From positions 1 through 42,214 of the forward strand of contig CANDIF010000002.1 in assembly GCA_947384775.1 (NCBI GenBank): a DNA stretch of 42,214 bases, read 5' to 3'. The position numbers were made by a program, and so were the translations under genes. Origin of the DNA: an uncultured Clostridium sp. GTDB taxonomy: Bacteria > Bacillota > Clostridia > TANB77 > CAG-508. Positions 4,985 through 41,107 of this stretch are shown here, piece by piece; within the stretch, counting starts at the first letter, position 1, and every line of letters starts with the position of its first letter. The notes beneath the pieces were generated by a model. The model ran no database searches, had not been told where the DNA came from, and saw only the letters and a program-made list of their open reading frames with translations.

Positions 4985-5203
4985 AAAAAAATCCCCCACA
5001 TTAGCCGTTTTCAAAGAAATTTTAAGGACCTGTTCTAAAACAGGTGGGTGTCTGCCTTAATATTCATGGGCTTCTTACTATCTTTATGTGTAAGCTTGCA
5101 CGCCATATTCAGAGCTTCGGACTCCCTTTCCTCGAATGTTGGTTCTAAAATTTCTCGTCTTTCTCGCACTACGCAGGGAAAAATTAAATTCATTATTTAT
5201 TAT
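4985..5203 (-). ncRNA. ssrS: Probable 6S RNA (SsrS)
   Basis: A non-coding stretch of about 219 bases with its own consensus promoter and a terminal T-run. The ends can pair (TCCC with GGGA; GAAATTTTA near 5145-5155 pairs perfectly with TAAAATTTC near 5013-5025), enclosing a rod-like middle. ATGGCGTGCAAGC, AGAAGCC, and GACACCCACCTG followed by an AACAGGT hairpin resemble the central part of bacterial 6S RNAs, which mimic an open promoter and sequester sigma-70/A RNA polymerase. The assignment rests on layout, length and these motifs without a covariance search. RNase P RNA was considered because of GAGGAAAG, but the length and other conserved regions do not fit. Confidence 0.65.
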
Positions 5204-30362: not shown

Positions 30363-30484
30363 CAAACAAAGCAAAAGTGGTATATTGCAAGGAAAGCAAA
30401 TAAAAATTTTTGAGACTATACGCTGTATGTCGATAAAATTTTTATGCAGCTTGACAAAGCAAGATGCCGCTTTTCATTTGTTTG
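30363..30484. repeat. Palindromic repeat family, copy A (after rplF)
   Basis: An imperfect 122-bp palindrome: the ends CAAACAAA and TTTGTTTG pair, with GCAAAAG/CTTTT next. Around the centre is ATACGCTGTAT then GTCGATAAAATTTTT. AGTGGTATATTGC on one arm and GCAAGATGCCGC on the other correspond to segments in copies B-D. It begins four bases from the rplF stop. Confidence 0.75.
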
Positions 30485-30488
30485 CATT

Positions 30489-31028
30489 TTACTTCTTTCC
30501 AGTTTTACCCTCTTTACGTCTAATATGTTCTTCAACATATTTAATACCTTTACCTCTATATACTTCAGGTGGTCTCTTTGTTCTTATAACTGCTGCCATT
30601 TCTCCAACTAATTCTTTATCAATTCCTCTTACAATTATTTGGTTTGGAGATGGAACTTCATATTTAATTCCTTCTGGTTCTACCATTTCTACTGGATGAG
30701 AATATCCTAATGTTAGAACTAATTTATTTCCTTGTTTTGCAGCTCTATAACCTACACCATTGATTTCTAATTCTCTAGTGTATTCGTTTAGAACACCTTG
30801 AATCATATTATTTATCAAAGTTCTTGTTAATCCATGAATACTTCTATTAAATGGTTGGTCATCTGGTCTCACAACTGTTATGACTTTATCATTTAATTCG
30901 ATTTTCATATTTGGGTGCATTTCTTTTTCAAGTGTACCTTTAGGACCTTTTACAGTAACTTTTTGACCTTCTATTTTTACTTCTACAGAATCTGGTACTG
31001 TAATTGGTTTATTTCCTATTCTTGACAT
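30489..31028 (-). CDS. rplF: 50S ribosomal protein L6
   Basis: Binds the sarcin-ricin loop region. 179 aa; [17 protein letters not shown] at the N-terminus and the C-terminal signature [20 protein letters not shown]. Copy A of the palindrome family adjoins its stop codon. Confidence 0.98.
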
Positions 31029-31055
31029 AACTATTTTCTCCTTTCTATTTATGAA

Positions 31056-31454
31056 TTACCATACATAAGCTAATACTTCTCCACCAACACCTAATTCTCT
31101 TGCTTTTTTATCTGTCATTATTCCTTTTGATGTTGATATTAATGCTATACCTAAACCATTTAAAACTTTAGGTAATTCTTCTTTAGAAGCATATATTCTT
31201 AAACCTGGTTTACTTATTCTTCTTAATCCAGATATAACTTTTTTACCTTTTTCTGTATATTTTAAAGTTATTCTTATAATTCCTTGATTATCGTTTTTTA
31301 TTTCTTCATAAGATTTTATATAACCTTCGTTAAATAGAATCTCTGCGATATCTCTTTTTATATTTGATGCAGGAACATCAACTGTTTTAAATTTAGCTTG
31401 ACCTGCATTTCTGATTCTTGTAAGCATATCTGCTATTGGATCAGTTGTAACCAT
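31056..31454 (-). CDS. rpsH: 30S ribosomal protein S8
   Basis: Central-domain 16S rRNA binder. 132 aa; [17 protein letters not shown] at the start and the C-terminal [20 protein letters not shown] motif. Confidence 0.98.
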
Positions 31455-31506
31455 TTTGTCTCCTCCTTTTTCACTATTATTTATATATTAGTTATTTATT
31501 TCCAAA

Positions 31507-31623
31507 AATTAATCAAAAACGAGTATGGCTAGCATCCGAAATTAAAAGCCGGAAACGTACGCTGTACGCTGAGGATTTTTCATATTAAAGGATAACAATG
31601 CCAGACGAAGTTTTTCATTAATT
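31507..31623. repeat. Palindromic repeat family, copy C (after rpsZ)
   Basis: A 117-bp imperfect palindrome. AATTAAT and AAAAAC at one end pair with GTTTTT and ATTAATT at the other; the centre CGTACGCTGTACGCTGAGGATTTTT matches the centre of copies A and B. AGTATGGCTAGC and AATGCCAGACGAAG form the shoulders. It begins two bases from the rpsZ stop. Confidence 0.75.
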
Positions 31624-31625
31624 TT

Positions 31626-31811
31626 TTACCAGCTAGACTTCTTAACACCAGGAATCTCACCCTTATGTGCTAATTCTCTAAAACAAATACGGCAAATTCC
31701 ATATTTTCTGATATAAGCATGTGGTCTTCCGCATAATTTGCATCTATTATATTCTCTTGTTTTATATTTTTGTGTTTTTTGTTGTTTAACAATCATTGCT
31801 TTTTTAGCCAT
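31626..31811 (-). CDS. rpsZ: 30S ribosomal protein S14, short zinc-binding form
   Basis: 61 aa, the short type. Zinc ligands are CKLC and CRIC; the C-terminal [17 protein letters not shown] is diagnostic. It occupies the spc-operon position between rplE and rpsH. Confidence 0.97.
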
Positions 31812-31834
31812 CTGTTTTTATTTCCTCCTTTTTA

Positions 31835-32374
31835 TTAATTTTTAAAAGGCATTCCTAATAGATTTAACAATTCTCTAGCTTCTTCATCTGAAGCAGCTGT
31901 TGTTACGAATATGATATCCATACCTCTTGTTTTATCTATTTTGTCATATTCTATTTCAGGAAATATTAATTGTTCTTTTATTCCTAAAGAATAGTTTCCT
32001 TTTCCATCAAAAGAATTCTTTGAAAGTCCTCTAAAGTCTCTTACTCTAGGTAATGCTACGTTAAATAGTTTGTATGCAAAATCATACATTTTTCCTTGTC
32101 TTAATGTAACTTTGCAACCTACATTAGCACCTTCTCTTAATTTGAATGCAGCTATTGATTTCTTAGCCTTTGTTACAATTGGCTTTTGACCTGTTATAAG
32201 TGTCAAATCATTTATTGCATTTTCTAATGATTTAGGATTGTCCTTTGTGTCTCCTAAACCTATATTGATAACAATCTTCTCTAATTTTGGAACTTGCATA
32301 ACTGATTTATATTGAAATTTTTTCATTAATGCAGGAACTACTTCTTTTTCATATTGTTCTCTTAAAGTTTCCAT
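31835..32374 (-). CDS. rplE: 50S ribosomal protein L5
   Basis: 5S rRNA-binding protein contacting P-site tRNA. 179 aa; [21 protein letters not shown] loop and C-terminal [20 protein letters not shown] are typical. Confidence 0.98.
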
Positions 32375-32388
32375 TATTTCTCCTCCTT

Positions 32389-32697
32389 CTATTTAATTAC
32401 TGTTCCACATCTTTTACAAACACGAACTTTAGAATCCTTTTCCATTTTGTAACCTATTCTTGCTGGTTTATTGCATTTAGAACAAACTACATTTACTTTG
32501 CTAGAATTTATTTCGCATTCTACTGGAATAATTCCACCTTCTTCTCCTTGTTTTTTAGGCTTGATGTGTTTTTTTCTAATATTTACACCTTTAACAATAA
32601 CTTTATCTTGTTTTGGCATTATTTTTAAAACTTCTCCAGTTTTTCCTTTATCATTTCCAGATAAAACTTGAACTGTATCACCTTTTTTTATTTTCAT
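32389..32697 (-). CDS. rplX: 50S ribosomal protein L24
   Basis: Assembly-initiator protein with a KOW motif ([19 protein letters not shown]). 102 aa. Two CxxC pairs near the C-terminus (CSKC, CKRC) suggest a bound zinc. Confidence 0.97.
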
Positions 32698-32741
32698 TAA
32701 GGTTTTCCCTCCTTTTTTGATTATTCAACTTAGTTTTATTA

Positions 32742-32860
32742 AACAAATTAAAATTAGTATATTGCTAGGCAAATTTTTTAATAAAACCGTAGGCGTGCTT
32801 TTGCACGTTGAGGATTTTATTAGAAAATTTAACGACGCAAGATGCTGATTTTTATTTGTT
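32742..32860. repeat. Palindromic repeat family, copy B (after rplN)
   Basis: The most regular copy, 119 bp. AACAAAT/ATTTGTT close the base; AAATTTT/AAAATTT, AATAAAACC/GGATTTTATT and GGCGTGC/GCACGTT pair inward to a TTTT loop. AGTATATTGCTAGG and GACGCAAGATGCTG are the shoulders. It ends one base from the rplN stop and 44 bases before the rplX start. Confidence 0.8.
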
Positions 32861-32861
32861 T

Positions 32862-33230
32862 TTATAGTACTTCTGGAGCTAAAGATAAAATCTTCATATA
32901 ATCTTTATCTCTTAATTCTCTTGCTATTGGTCCAAATATACGAGTTCCTTTTGGAGTTCCATCATCTCTTATGATAACTGCTGCATTTTCATCAAATCTT
33001 ACATAAGAACCATCAGCTCTTTTTATAGGTTTTGTTGTTCTTACTATAACTGCTTTTACAACATCACCTTTTTTTACAACACCATTTGGTATAGCATTTT
33101 TAACTGATGCAACTATAACATCACCTACACCTGCAAATTTTCTATGTGAACCACCTAAACATCTGATACACATAAGTTCTTTTGCTCCTGTGTTATCTGC
33201 TACTTTTAATCTAGATTGTTGTTGAATCAT
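32862..33230 (-). CDS. rplN: 50S ribosomal protein L14
   Basis: Intersubunit-bridge protein. 122 aa; [20 protein letters not shown] at the start and [18 protein letters not shown] motif. Copy B adjoins its stop. Confidence 0.98.
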
Positions 33231-33247
33231 TTAGGTTTCCTCCTTCT

Positions 33248-33289
33248 TATTAATTATTCACTATTAACTATTCACTATTAATTATTCAC
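33248..33289. repeat. Three tandem 14-bp repeats
   Basis: TATTAATTATTCAC, TATTAACTATTCAC, TATTAATTATTCAC in direct succession between rpsQ and rplN. A further partial copy lies at 27578-27592. No function evident. Confidence 0.8.
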
Positions 33290-33306
33290 TACTAGCTTTC
33301 ATTAAT

Positions 33307-33570
33307 TTATTTAATAACTGCTTTTTCCATAACTTCAACCAATCTCCATCTCTTATCTTTTGATAGAGGTCTAGTTTCCATTACTTTTACTTTATCACCT
33401 ATTTGGCATTCATTATTTTCATCATGTGCTTTTAATTTATATGTTCTTTTAACGAATTTTCCATATAATGGGTGTTTTACACTTGTTTCAACTGATACTA
33501 CTATTGTTTTATCCATTTTATTAGATGTTACTGTACCAACCATAACTTTACGAAGATTTCTTTCTTCCAT
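33307..33570 (-). CDS. rpsQ: 30S ribosomal protein S17
   Basis: OB-fold 16S rRNA binder. 87 aa; [20 protein letters not shown] and the [21 protein letters not shown] stretch shortened here are typical. Confidence 0.97.
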
Positions 33571-33605
33571 GTTTAATCTCCTTTCTCGATAACATTAGTT
33601 CTATG

Positions 33606-33800
33606 TTATTTTGCTAATTCTCTTTCTTTTAAAACTGTATTTATTCTAGCAATATCTTTCTTTGTTTCTTTTATTTTCATAGGATTATCTAATCCATTTG
33701 TTGCTAAATTAAATCTTAGTTTGAATAATTCAGTTTTTAATTCACCTAATTCTTTTTCTAAGTCTGGTGAAGACATTTCTCTTATTTTATCTATCTTCAT
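33606..33800 (-). CDS. rpmC: 50S ribosomal protein L29
   Basis: Two-helix exit-tunnel protein, 64 aa from [19 protein letters not shown] choose the ATG at 33800, eight bases after AAGGTGG; alternative GTG/ATG codons up to 33812 overlap this site. It overlaps the rplP end by 14 bases, implying coupled translation. Confidence 0.95.
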
Positions 33801-34230
33801 CAACATCACCACCTTGATTATTTTCTCTTACTACGAATTTTGTTTTTACTGGTAGTTTATGTGAAGCTAATCTTAAAGCTTCTCTAGCTGTTCCTTCTGC
33901 TACTTCATCTAATTCGAATAGGATTCTTCCTGGTTTAACTGGTGCTACCCAATATTCTACAGCACCTTTACCTTTACCCATACGAGTTTCAGCAGGTTTT
34001 TTGCTTATTGGTTTGTTTGGGAATATTTTAATCCAAACTTTTCCACCTCTTTTTATATAACGTGTCATTGCTATACGGGCTGCTTCTATTTGATTTGCTG
34101 TAATTAATCCTGCTTCTACTGTTTGTAATCCATATTGTCCTTCATTTACAACATTACCTCTTGTTGCTTTTCCTCTGTTTCTACCCTTTTGCATTTTTCT
34201 ATATTTTGTTCTTTTTGGCATTACTGGCAT
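33787..34230 (-). CDS. rplP: 50S ribosomal protein L16
   Basis: A-site region protein, 147 aa. [19 protein letters not shown] and the [19 protein letters not shown] motif are diagnostic. Its ATG shares a base with the rpsC stop (TAATG); GGAGG lies ten bases before. Confidence 0.98.
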
Positions 34231-34892
34231 TATACATTTCCTCCTTCTGCTTTTATTTTTTTAGTAGGAAGAACTTCTCCTTTATATATCCAAACTTTTA
34301 CACCTATTTTTCCATAAGTTGTATCTGCTTCATAGAAACCATAGTCTATATCTGCTCTTATTGTTTGTAGTGGAATTGTTCCTTCTTTATAGAATTCTGT
34401 TCTTGCCATATCAGCTCCACCTAATCTTCCAGATACAGATGTTTTTATTCCTAAAGCTCCTGCTTTCATTGCTTTTTGCATACATTGTTTCATTGCTCTT
34501 CTAAAAGAGATTCTTCTTTCTAATTGATTACAAATGTTTTCTGCTACTAATTGTGCATTTGTATCAACATCTTTTACTTCAACTATATTTAAGTTTACAT
34601 CTTTGTTTATCATTTTAGCTAATTCTTGTTTTAAGCTTTCAGCTAAGTTTCCACCTTTTCCTATTACTAGTCCTGGTTTTGCTGTGTAAACATTTACTTT
34701 AACAAATTTAGCTGTTCTTTCTATTTCAATCTTAGAAATACCGCTAACAAATAATTTTTTCTTTACATATTCACGGATTTTGTGGTCTTCTACTAAATAG
34801 TCACTGAAATTTCTTGAATCAGCATACCATTTTGAACTCCAATCTTTTATAACACCAACTCTTAATCCATGTGGATGCATTTTTTGTCCCAT
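34230..34892 (-). CDS. rpsC: 30S ribosomal protein S3
   Basis: mRNA-entry and helicase-associated protein, 220 aa. N-terminal [20 protein letters not shown] domain [14 protein letters not shown] and C-terminal [20 protein letters not shown] are typical. Confidence 0.98.
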
Positions 34893-34911
34893 TTTTATCT
34901 TTCCCTCCTTA

Positions 34912-35265
34912 TTAAACTTCTCTCAATTTAATTGTTATATGACTGGTTCTTTTTCTTATTCTTACAGCTGAACCTTTGGCTGCTGGTCTTATTCTTTTCA
35001 TTGTTGGACCTTGGTTTGCATAAATTTCACTAACTACTAAGTTTCCTCTATTCATACCATGATTATTTTCTGCATTTGCTATTGCAGATTTAAGTAATTT
35101 TTCTAATATTTCAGATGATGCTTTTGGTGTGAATTTTACTATTGCTAATGCTTCATCTGCTTTTTTTCCTCTTATAAGATCTGCTACTATTTTTACTTTT
35201 CTAGCTGAAATTCTTGCAAATCTTAATGTAGCTGTTGCTTCTAGCACTTTATTTTCTTCTGGCAT
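34912..35265 (-). CDS. rplV: 50S ribosomal protein L22
   Basis: Exit-tunnel protein, 117 aa. [19 protein letters not shown] and the hairpin-loop end [16 protein letters not shown] are typical. GGAGG precedes the ATG within the last bases of a palindromic spacer. Confidence 0.98.
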
Positions 35266-35396
35266 TTTTTATTTACCTCCTTAATAATATTCCGTTCTAT
35301 CGTATTGCATAGGAAAAACTCTTTTTTCTCTAACGATTAAGTTCTTCCAATACAACAAGGTTACTTTCATTATTTTATATATTTGTAAAATACTTT

Positions 35397-35675
35397 CTAT
35401 TTTACTGTTGTTTTCTTGTCTCCTGAATGTCCTCTAAATGTTCTTGTTGGAGCAAATTCTCCTAATTTATGTCCTATCATCTCTTCTGATATATAAATTG
35501 GAACATGTTTTCTTCCATCATGAACTGCTATTGTATGACCTACCATTTGTGGGTATATTGTAGAAGCTCTTGACCAAGTTTTTAAAACACTTTTTTGTCC
35601 ACTTTCATTCATGGCTTCAATTCTTTTTAAAAGTTTTGGCTCTATAAATGGTTTTTTCTTACTAGATCTTGACAT
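35397..35675 (-). CDS. rpsS: 30S ribosomal protein S19
   Basis: Head protein, 92 aa. [19 protein letters not shown] and the [19 protein letters not shown] signature are present. Confidence 0.98.
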
Positions 35676-35694
35676 TAAATTTTCCTCCTTTTAC

Positions 35695-36522
35695 CTATTT
35701 TCTTCTCTTTACTATATATTTGTCTGTTTTATTATTTTTCTTTCTTGTCTTATATCCTAATGCTGGTTTACCCCAAGGAGTAAGTGGTCCACTATGTCCT
35801 ACTGGTGCTCTACCTTCACCACCACCATGTGGGTGATCTACTGGGTTCATAACAGAACCTCTAACTGTTGGTCTTATACCCATATGTCTTTTTCTTCCTG
35901 CTTTTCCTAATTTGATATTGCTGTGGTCTGCATTTCCTATTGTTCCTATTGTTGCTCTACATTTTGCTCTAACTAATCTCATTTCTCCAGAAGGTAATCT
36001 TATATGTGCATAATTTCCTTCTTTAGCCATTAATTGAGCTTCTCCTCCAGCAGCTTTTACCATTTTTCCACCTTGACCTGGGTTTAATTCTATATTATGA
36101 ATTACTGTACCTACTGGTATGTTTTCTATTGGTAAGCAGTTTCCTGGTTTAATATCTGCATTATTTCCAGATACTACTTTGTCTCCTTCTTTTAATCCTT
36201 GTGGAGCTAATATATAATTTAAAACTCCATCTTCATATTTAATTAATGCTATGTTACTTGTACGGTTTGGATCATATTCGATTCCTATAACTGTAGCTGG
36301 CATATCATCTTTTAATCTTTTAAAATCTATTATTCTATATTTTTGTCTGTTTCCTCCACCTTGATGTCTTACTGTTATTCTTCCATATGAATTTCTACCT
36401 GCATTTTTTTTCTTTTTTGATAATAAAGATTTTTCAGGTGTCTTTTTTGTTATTTCTTCATTTCCTAATGTTGTCATGTTTCTTCTTGATGGTGTATAGG
36501 GTCTGAATGTTTTTATACTCAT
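35695..36522 (-). CDS. rplB: 50S ribosomal protein L2
   Basis: Peptidyl-transferase-centre protein, 275 aa. [19 protein letters not shown] at the start and the essential C-terminal [19 protein letters not shown] loop are conserved. A structured 99-base spacer and an unknown 54-codon ORF separate it from rplW, its usual direct neighbour. Confidence 0.98.
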
Positions 36523-36621
36523 TGTCTTTTCTCCTTTTATTTTATATTTAGTGGATGTTTTCCTGCTCCACTGGGCAGATATTTATTTATTTTCCCAGTT
36601 TAATCTGGATATTTTTATCGT
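36523..36621 (-). promoter_or_regulatory. Overlapping-hairpin leader before rplB
   Basis: On the minus strand three hairpins follow one another and share arms: CCAG/CTGG; then ACTGGG/CCCAGT, which uses the same CTGG; then AGTGGA/TCCACT, which uses the AGT of the second. Forming the second excludes the other two, the pattern of an RNA switch. No T-run follows, so control of translation would be more likely than termination. Confidence 0.45.
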
Positions 36622-36786
36622 TTATCTTTCTTGTTCTTCTCCATCTTTTTTAGGTAATTCTAATATTTTTCTAAGTCTTTCTGGTGAAAGAAAATAGCTA
36701 TTATCACGCATAACTTTTCCTTCTTTACGTCCACTTCTTAGTCTTTCAAATCTTTTTACTTTCATAGAGTCTCTAAATTCACTCAT
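36622..36786 (-). CDS. Unknown 54-residue basic protein in the S10 operon
   Basis: An unreported-looking ORF: MSEFRDSMKVKRFERLRSGR followed by KEGKVMRDNSYFLSPERLRK and a charged end. It is basic in its first half and predicted mostly helical. AAAGGAAG lies about 10 bases ahead of the ATG. It stands between rplW and rplB, which are normally adjacent; the spacing from repeat copy D (45 bases) equals that between repeats and true genes elsewhere in the operon, which supports translation. It resembles no ribosomal protein I know. Confidence 0.6.
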   Translation of the reverse strand: MSEFRDSMKVKRFERLRSGRKEGKVMRDNSYFLSPERLRKILELPKKDGEEQER

Positions 36787-36830
36787 GGCTTCATCTTCCT
36801 TTCTCTATATTTAAAATTTTGTTCTTTTGA

Positions 36831-36949
36831 TTAAGAATTAGAAGCAAGTATAACAAATCAGCCGAACTAAAAATTTTGAAGGTGTACACTATACATTGAA
36901 AATTTTTAGAGAAGACTAACTTAAGTTAGACGATGCTTATAACTCTTAA
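36831..36949. repeat. Palindromic repeat family, copy D (after rplW)
   Basis: A 119-bp imperfect palindrome overlapping the rplW stop codon. TTAAGAATTAGAAGCA pairs with TGCTTATAACTCTTAA at the base. The centre GTGTACACTATACATTGAAAA and the shoulders AAGTATAAC and GACGATGC correspond to copies A-C. Confidence 0.7.
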
Positions 36950-37293
36950 GCACCCATAAATTCTTCTATTGAAGACTTATACTTCTTATCAACTTTAACT
37001 TCTTTTCCACCTTTTGATAAGTATTTTGTTTCAGATGGATTTGTATCTATTGTTACAATAGCTTTTTTCCAGTCTGGTCTTTTTCCTTCATGAGCACCCA
37101 TTCTTTTTACTTTTCCTGTAACTGTCATTGTATTAACTTTTAATACTTTAACATTGAATAATGCTTCAACTGAATTTGCTATTTGAACTTTTGTAGCATT
37201 TTTAGCTACTTTAAAGGTGTATTTCCCTTGTTCTAATTCGCTGTTACTTTTTTCTGTGATTATTGGCTTTATTATAATATCTTCTGGTCTCAT
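36946..37293 (-). CDS. rplW: 50S ribosomal protein L23
   Basis: Exit-site protein that docks trigger factor and SRP. 115 aa, slightly longer than usual at the C-terminus. PIITEKSNSELEQGKYTFKV and the VKVLKVNTMTVTGKVKRMG region are typical. Confidence 0.97.
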   Translation of the reverse strand: MRPEDIIIKPIITEKSNSELEQGKYTFKVAKNATKVQIANSVEALFNVKVLKVNTMTVTGKVKRMGAHEGKRPDWKKAIVTIDTNPSETKYLSKGGKEVKVDKKYKSSIEEFMGA

Positions 37294-39482: not shown

Positions 39483-41107
39483 TTAAGGTGCTGTTTTTAT
39501 TGTTACATCCGATACTCCACACTGTTCAAACATTCTGTCTATTGTCGCATTGCTTGAATTCCAGTTTGCTCCAACATATACACTAGTTATTGCTCTAGTT
39601 CCATAAAACATTCTTGTCATATTTGTTACTTTATTTGTATCGAAACTAGTTAAATCTAGAGTTGTTAAAAGATCACATCCTTCGAACATCCATTGCATAT
39701 TTGCAACATTACTTGTATCAAATTTACTAACATTTATTGTAGAAATATTCTCACAATATGCAAACATTTTTGCCATAATAGTTGCTTTGTTAGTTTTAAA
39801 ATTACTTACATCAATTATTGGAACTTTTCTACAATTATAAAACATATTAGCAAAATCTGTTACATTTGCTGTATCAAAACCGCTTACATCTAAATCTGTC
39901 AATTCTTTACATTCTTCAAACATTCCATGCATGTCTGTTACATTTGTTGTAATAAAATTGCTAACATCTAAATTCACTAATTTATTGCAATAGCTGAACA
40001 TGTCTCTCATTGTTGTTACATTACTCGTATCAAAATTACTAATATCTAAATTTGTTAAAGAAGTACATCCATAAAACATTCCACTTACCTTTGTTGCATT
40101 GCTTATATCAATTTTACTAGTATCTATATTTGTTAAGCTACTGCAATTATAAAACATATCATTTAAATCTGCCACTTTAGATGTATTGAAATTATTTCCA
40201 AATTTTATATTTGTTAAGTTTCTACATCCCTCAAATAAATTCTTCATAGTTGTGACATTTTTTGTATTAAAATTGCTTATATCTAATGTCGTTAAACTAT
40301 TACATCCATAAAATAGTTCATTCATATCTGTTACATTTTCTGTGTTGAAATTACTAACATCTATTTTTTTAAATTGCTACAATTATAGAACATATATCCC
40401 ATATCTGTTGCATTACTTGTATTGAATCCTCTTACATCTATGTCAATTAAATTACTACATCCAAAAAACATATCATGCATATTAGTCACATTCTCTGTAT
40501 TAAAAGTGCTTAAATTTAATGACGTTAAACTGCTACAGTTTTTAAATGTATTTTCCATACTTGTAACTTTACTTGTATCAATTTTATTTAAATTTACTAT
40601 TTCTTTTAATGATGTAAACCCTGTAAAGTAACTCCTCATAGTCGTTGGAGCTATTTTATTTGCAATTACTACCCTTTCTATCGTCGTTCTTTTGCTATCC
40701 CATGGTGATGGTTTGCTACTCCTAAATTCTATTCCTTTTATATTTCCGAAATTATTTTCTGTACTATCTGCATTTGCTTTTGCCGCTTCTTCATTATTGA
40801 AAAAGCTTAACGTAGTACCATTTAATGAAACAAAAATATCTTCTGAAGCTACTTCCTCTTCTATTGTTGGAAATTCAATTTTATTAGGTAGGTCCAATTC
40901 TTCTTCCTGTGCCTTTCCCCATTTTTCTACTGCACTTTTTGCATGTCCAAATAAACCGCTATCTACAGCTGTTTTTACTGTTACTGCTACTAGGATTAGC
41001 ATTACTATTATTGTGATTATTAGGGCAATCAGTGTGATACCACTGTTACTAGTGGTAGCAACCTCTACATTTTTTAATTTAATTTTGTGGTAATTTTTCT
41101 TTTGCAT
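39483..41107 (-). CDS. BspA-like leucine-rich-repeat surface protein, split by a frameshift
   Basis: The first frame (41107-40361, 248 aa) has a basic N-terminus and SGITLIALIITIIVMLILVA, a hydrophobic segment like class III (pilin-type) signals, then a linker and repeats; it stops at TAG (40361-40363). The second frame resumes at the same repeat position and runs to 39483. Together (about 540 aa) they hold about 14 BspA/DUF285 repeats of roughly 23 residues, consensus MFxxCxxLxxLDxSxFxTxxVTxM. Such proteins often bind host or matrix components. No LPXTG or wall-binding C-terminus is seen. GGGGG precedes the ATG. Either translation shifts at the A7 tract or the gene is broken. Confidence 0.85.
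40361..40370 (-). promoter_or_regulatory. Slippery heptamer A AAA AAA directly before UAG
   Basis: In the zero frame the codons read TTA AAA AAA TAG, so the last A of TTA and the two AAA codons form a canonical -1 slippery heptamer (40364-40370). A -1 slip gives AAA AAA ATA GAT and continues the repeat pattern exactly. No strong stimulatory hairpin is evident downstream. Confidence 0.6.

Follow-up and report, generated by a model that had tools for sequence, protein, structure and literature searches.

Hairpins at ribosomal stop codons of an uncultured Clostridium belong to a dispersed palindromic repeat family and are most likely small non-autonomous mobile elements

Hairpins in the S10-spc operon

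The stretch of DNA considered here (the window) comprises the 42,214 nucleotides from position 1 of contig CANDIF010000002.1, from an uncultured Clostridium sp. (assembly GCA_947384775.1). Its minus strand carries the S10-spc ribosomal protein operon, in which imperfect palindromes of 117-122 nt lie at four gene junctions: rplF-rplR, rpsZ-rpsH, rplN-rplX, and the junction between rplW and an open reading frame (ORF) of 54 aa. A sequence-only reading of the window had described four such palindromes, and all four were found where it placed them. The copies and the genes directly upstream of them are as follows.

30363..30484, plus strand (the model strand, antisense to rplF): copy A, right end 4 nt from the rplF stop
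31507..31623, plus strand: copy C, right end 2 nt from the rpsZ (S14) stop
32742..32860, plus strand: copy B, right end 1 nt from the rplN stop
36831..36949, plus strand: copy D, with the rplW stop codon inside its right end and TTAA flanking the inner arms on both sides
30489..31028, minus strand: rplF (L6), the gene upstream of copy A, an ORF named from sequence reading
31626..31811, minus strand: rpsZ/rpsN type Z (S14), the gene upstream of copy C, named from sequence reading
32862..33230, minus strand: rplN (L14), the gene upstream of copy B, named from sequence reading
36946..37293, minus strand: rplW (L23), the gene upstream of copy D, named from sequence reading

The sequence-only reading had every element begin 0-4 bases after a stop codon, which is correct for copies A, C, and B (4, 2, and 1 nt) and nearly so for copy D, where the rplW stop lies within the last bases of the element. 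The distance of 44-59 bases that it gave to the next gene agrees with the 58, 52, 44, and 44 nt measured from copies A, C, B, and D to the next start codon. The gene that follows copy D is the 54-aa ORF, which has no name, lies between rplW and rplB (window 36622-36786, minus strand), and has a plausible ribosome-binding site.

Folded as plus-strand RNA, three of the four copies outperformed all 200 of 200 dinucleotide shuffles (z = -6.6, -9.8, and -3.9), and copy C folds weakly, with a z of -2.1 and 6 of 200 shuffles equally good. Mean column identity in an alignment of the four is 70%, and the common centre and shoulders described earlier recur in further copies, although A-D are only 55-63% identical pairwise. 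All four copies are genuine structured elements and homologous to one another.

Further copies in the same genome

The genome that contains the window (G000) is an assembly of 1.49 Mb in 34 contigs. When a single copy was used as a DNA query, only one more clear copy was recovered from it, whereas R1, a covariance model built from five copies, found at least 13 copies at E <= 0.04, and R2, a cross-phylum model, also found at least 13. The hand-drawn pairs of R1 were two columns out of register and R2 uses a structure from RNAalifold; the R1 matches were kept because R2 recovers all of them. All copy counts per genome from R1 and R2 searches are lower bounds, and since the training rows of R2 include the distant loci described below, the best scores of those loci follow by construction, while their further copy counts do not.

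Beyond the window, copies follow hpf, fusA, rpsG, infB, a porD-like gene, an ORF before hemW, dapA, a rubredoxin-like ORF, and gatC, all named from reading translations. None of the 13 copies is more than 17 nt away from a stop codon, the largest distance being that of the porD-like site, 17 nt after the stop; the dapA and rubredoxin-like stops were placed by reading the letters, as both were missed by the ORF rule of the context scan. In 13 of 13 copies, the model strand is antisense to the upstream gene.

The expectation that pairing would be better kept than sequence is borne out by these copies. With the register corrected, 82.9% of cells are paired. Sliding the partner lowers this share to 37.9-51.5%, and both sides have changed in 26 of 39 pairs. 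Pairing extends to the outer arms, where 83% of cells in helix 1 (the terminal inverted repeats) are paired; an example of the arm sequence in the window's clade is WWWWWATGAAAAAC. A covariance-model search of the genome and its relatives, set beforehand as the check, returned a repeat family with compensatory changes. The sequence-only reading had also named a lack of further copies, of covariation, and of conserved positions as evidence against itself; nine further genomic copies, covariation, and a site shared with sister species were found.

Occurrence and placement in relatives

Of 38 genomes from the window's clade, own genome included, 18 have R1 matches, with 1-17 copies each; three of the seven other genomes of the genus (G001, G002, and G007) have none. 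R2 matches 31 of 249 genomes from the same phylum, again with the own genome included. From fetched loci of the window's clade, 121 copies were aligned, 13 of them from the own genome, and R2 recovers all 121. In this alignment, 88.7% of cells are paired, compared with 33-47% when slid.

These data bear on the suggestion that the palindromes arose by chance or from base composition, or that they are functionless stems corrected by strand-switch repair. Quasi-palindromes can be made perfect by template switching, a process that would favour such an origin, but conserved mismatches and internal loops persist across phyla, E-values with R2 reach 6e-26 (the best rows belonged to its training set), and none of 500 shuffled controls equals the covariation score, which makes this explanation extremely improbable.

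The context of the 121 copies was read from ORFs, the gene calls around them being our own ORF picks. Eighty-three copies lie antisense between co-directional genes and one more does so inside a mis-called ORF; the remainder are convergent (16), sense (8), divergent (4), or unassigned (9). Among the 83, the right end falls at -14 to +9 nt of the upstream stop in 70, where 14.1 would be expected if ends were uniform in the gap, and the left end is equally close to the next start in only three. Several sense copies place the same right end 16-29 nt upstream of the next start. Tandem copies occur at four loci, and an opposite-orientation pair of R2 matches occupies one rpsZ-rpsH gap (genome G044, L149:2547-2871), as in L058 and L037. 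The same junctions are reused in different genera, including rplW-rplB, rplJ-rplL, rpsG-fusA, rpsL, infB-rbfA, porD-porA, and nrdD, with names from sequence reading. In two copies (L058:4108-4279 and L102:1564-1730), the middle of the element is longer by about 50 nt.

The frequencies of G.U and A.C in the stems were considered as a test of strand. In the variable stems, these number 47 and 40 in A7, and 14 and 4 in A6, a slight strand preference that does not clearly favour selection acting on a single RNA strand. The test was set aside, as the excess of G.U is confined to two conserved inner pairs and an action as RNA rather than DNA is therefore not provable from it.

Gain and loss at single junctions

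Among 24 genomes with rplF, own genome included, R2 matches the rplF-rplR gap of G000, G010, G016, and G044, in the sense orientation in the last. That of G040 has a weak match (E 0.017), that of G022 has a fragment seen by eye, and that of G024 has element-like letters, yet no R2 match; in most of the other genomes the gap measures 17-132 nt. The rpsZ-rpsH gap is matched by R2 in G000, G022, G040, and G044. Copy A has counterparts at its site in G006 (97% identical to that of G000) and G003 (95%). At the rpsZ site, the copies of G000 and G003 are only 65% identical and that of G003 is 82% identical to copy A, while in the sister G006, with RplF 99% identical to that of G000, the site is empty, with a gap of 21 nt. 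Either elements reached this one stop codon independently, or a copy was lost there and replaced.

Other small repeats occupy the same operon. In G001 and G007 (L374 and L371), its gaps hold short repeats of TTAGAAGTTAG or GGATGTCGG type, and a small CTAATGCTGTTACATTAG-like hairpin stands directly before the ribosome-binding site of rplR in several genera (L137, L135, L139, and L147).

Such a record of gain and loss is relevant to the view that the hairpin is a host-maintained cis element of polycistronic mRNA, a role akin to the effect on mRNA stability or stoichiometry suggested in the sequence-only reading. On this view, it would protect or process the upstream message after the stop codon, or slow down ribosomes, and would in this way fix stoichiometry where operons are highly expressed. 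Eight copies of the own genome lie in translation operons, after rplF, rpsZ, rplN, rplW, fusA, rpsG, infB, and hpf, and other genera reuse rplW-rplB, rplJ-rplL, rpsG-fusA, and porD-porA, in keeping with such a role, as is the maintenance of stems by covariation. Repetitive extragenic palindromic sequences (REPs) within 15 nt of a stop have reported effects on translation (PMC12306157), which also favours it. Most of the 24 genomes nevertheless have no element at rplF-rplR and rpsZ-rpsH, often with short gaps, and copy C is missing from the sister species despite its nearly identical RplF. Selection on one RNA strand should favour G.U, in contrast to the near-equal counts in the variable stems of A7, and the more stable strand is the model strand, by more than 2 kcal/mol in 104 of 121 copies, which is mostly antisense to the upstream gene. 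A cis-acting role is therefore considered unlikely as the explanation of the family.

A conserved core in other phyla

A scan of genome contigs with the central motif returned at least 117 stretches, many in Nitrospira, and others labelled Clostridia, Planctomycetota, Rokuibacteriota, Methylomirabilota, Riflebacteria, Spirochaetia, and more. Viral contigs gave five matches to the motif pattern, and a 207-nt query from Nitrospira defluvii had no match at E 0.001 in plasmid and phage collections. Of 128 motif matches in fetched loci, some of which may be chance, the folding rule applied yielded a hairpin of 117-131 nt with sufficient flank for 57, and the rest were longer, shorter, or gave none. 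An alignment of 44 sequences across phyla has 92.1% of cells paired, compared with 31-44% when slid, and 18 of 23 pairs have changed on both sides. Its most conserved parts are unpaired or mispaired blocks, GC[UA]AGGC / AACRAMGC and CCGGAGGYGUAC / GUACRUYGAGG.

Copies were found with R2 in each of the 14 records behind the distant loci, with at least 58 in a record of Phycisphaerae, 37 in one of Rokuibacteriota, 15 in one of Riflebacteria, and 9 in one of Spirochaetia, and lower bounds of 97-150 in five of Nitrospirota; the match in a Myxococcaceae record is weak (best E 0.008). It may tentatively be proposed that a single ancient hairpin module, defined by its conserved internal loops, is present in many phyla as a mobile parasite, exchanges its outer arms to suit the host transposase, and persists in the densest operons through insertion at stop codons with a single orientation.

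Target duplications in Nitrospira defluvii

In the genome of N. defluvii, R2 lists at least 97 copies, of which the context of 70 was analysed. A near-identical group shares about 206 nt, with the hairpin as its right part, and the units are 199 bp long, starting with CAGG and ending with CCTG as terminal inverted repeats. Among these 199-bp units, 17 were listed in which three or more of the four flank bases match; 16 of the 17 are bounded by identical 4-bp flanks of YTAN type, and eight of the 16 identical pairs are non-palindromic (CTAA, TTAG, CTAC, and CTAT). A pattern search revealed one pair of CAGG/CCTG-type ends 1.3 kb apart with TTAG on both sides. This 1.3-kb insertion sequence (IS), with the same terminal inverted repeats, encodes a transposase of 342 aa, which scores 278.9 bits against NCBIfam IS5_4 (cut-off 140) and matches PF05598 and PF01609. 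YTAR is a usual target of IS5-type elements. Where the right end abuts a stop codon in this genome, the stop is TAG or TAA in 24 of 29 cases, and TGA is rarer there (5 of 29) than among ORFs (92 of 243; p = 0.015). At six loci (L376-L381), units of about 265-340 bp have the same CAGG..CCTG ends and a hairpin with extra side arms.

A probable non-autonomous mobile element

The four hairpins of the window are best read as copies of a dispersed palindromic repeat family that places one fixed end at stop codons, most likely a small non-autonomous mobile element with predicted insertion at the TA of stop codons, a reading to which a probability of about 70% is assigned. By analogy, we infer that the window's copies arrived by a route like that in N. 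defluvii, with another enzyme acting in trans. Insertion at a YTAR target spanning a stop codon would rebuild TAA or TAG on the gene side, without cost to the gene; because the duplicated target would restore the stop, YTAR-directed insertion would explain the position at stops. The opposite orientation would set the hairpin against the ribosome-binding site of the next gene, and selection presumably removes it. As for the conserved internal loops, the prediction is that they serve as the feature by which folded single-stranded or cruciform DNA is recognised, either by the transposition machinery or by a host factor. Of the proposals in the sequence-only reading, that of mobile elements targeting TAA/TTAA sites at stop codons is well supported, by copy number, patchy occurrence, recurrent arrival, and the YTAN duplications of Nitrospira.

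Several observations weigh against a mobile origin of this kind. A search for IS5_4 transposases, limited to that family, found none in the 38 genomes of the clade, G000 included. Symmetric YTAR repeats flank 11 of 117 copies of relatives, against a control mean of 3.1, but ten of the 11 are TTAA, as expected from arm pairing alone. Among distant copies consisting of the hairpin only, one of 57 has a YTAN repeat at both ends (control 0.7). TGA is not depleted at the stops of relatives, where it makes up 5 of 90 stops next to elements and 27 of 370 stops in all. Ordinary MITEs (miniature inverted-repeat transposable elements) are not known to keep internal loops across phyla. Finally, neutral insertion by itself does not account for the many copies in translation genes; this bias may reflect expression-linked insertion, tolerance, or host use.

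Other signs of mobility or of a mobiliser were sought. Direct repeats at a fixed offset gave no clear signal in relatives, and among protein families near elements across phyla no transposase was conspicuous by eye. Reverse transcriptases were rejected as candidates, since PF00078 matches do not track element load and G003, G010, G016, and G029 have many copies and no match. Five of the 121 copies adjoin serine recombinase-like genes (L036, L038, L086, L045, and L100; proteins read), which suggests that these copies ride on larger mobile DNA.

If the mobile reading is true, it would explain the persistence of foreign DNA inside the most conserved operons, the stop codon being the one position in a gene where an insertion that duplicates YTAR stays silent. 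The family is widespread, each of five Nitrospirota records having about 100 copies or more, and in the loci scanned it has no counterpart in the curated RNA library; it also offers a natural set of independent insertions for testing the effects of strong post-stop hairpins on operon expression.

Comparison with known systems

In N. defluvii, the family resembles IS5-family MITEs in having terminal inverted repeats in common with an IS5-family IS of that genome, 4-bp YTAN duplications, and many near-identical copies. It differs from them in that the hairpin core and loops recur in other phyla with other arms, and in that the window's clade has no IS5_4 transposase among the 38 genomes.

The sequence-only reading had likened the palindromes to REPs and bacterial interspersed mosaic elements (BIMEs). 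The family shares with these, and with REPINs (REP doublets forming hairpins), an extragenic position downstream of genes, tandem and inverted pairs, compensatory changes, and several to many copies. The likeness holds for placement and tandem arrays but not for end tags, with GTAG found in 0 of 121 copies and CGTC in 4 of 121 within 14 nt of an end on either strand. The elements are also about 120 nt long, and their centre and shoulders are conserved rather than their ends.

A variant of the mobile reading follows from this likeness, in which a REPIN-like family is moved by a REP-associated tyrosine transposase (RAYT) through folded single-stranded DNA. REPINs too are long hairpins with compensatory change (PMC3116915), a point in its favour. 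Y1_Tnp ORFs of at least 200 aa were found in 11 of the 18 element-bearing genomes, compared with 3 of the 20 others (Fisher p = 0.006, uncorrected for kinship). Proximity does not agree with this association: in 15 genomes, 20 loci that span about 3 kb each and surround RAYT-type genes contain no R1 match at E <= 5, and the sole R1 match among 28 Y1_Tnp loci (E 0.0015) adjoins an IS200-type gene. Several RAYT genes of relatives (L151-L169) are instead flanked by different short GGGGACGG-like repeats, seen by eye. With the GTAG tag missing and no Y1_Tnp match in G005 (at least 10 copies) or G024 (at least 8 copies), mobilisation by a RAYT is judged improbable, to about the same degree as a cis-acting role.

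Integron attC sites have RYYYAAC...GTTRRRY core sites at the base of the stem, and their folded bottom strand follows stop codons. The strand folded here, antisense to the upstream gene, the post-stop position, and the tandem copies recall such sites and would allow the palindromes to be recombination sites of an integron-type system. The ends of the 121 copies are by eye variable where attC has its cores, no cassette arrays were seen, the neighbouring genes belong to conserved operons rather than cassettes, and no integrase-like family was conspicuous by eye among proteins near elements, so that this identity is very improbable. ERIC (enterobacterial repetitive intergenic consensus) or IRU (intergenic repeat unit) palindromes are imperfect palindromes of about 120 bp in transcribed intergenic regions. 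The family resembles them in these respects and differs in its hosts and its placement at stops, a comparison made with the general description of these palindromes rather than with their sequences.

Rfam has no family above its gathering threshold for the element in the window or in 20 distant loci, and a permissive Rfam scan gave one sub-threshold miRNA match, over copy B. Among the matches listed in open-access full-text literature, including PMC12306157, PMC3116915, and PMC3733652, no paper was recognised from its excerpts as describing the hairpin family.

Other features of the window

Elsewhere in the window, a 6S RNA at 4989-5182 (minus strand) exceeds the Rfam gathering score. Two neighbouring ORFs at 39483-41107 (minus strand) contain BspA-like repeats as well as tandem repeats of 77-78 bp.

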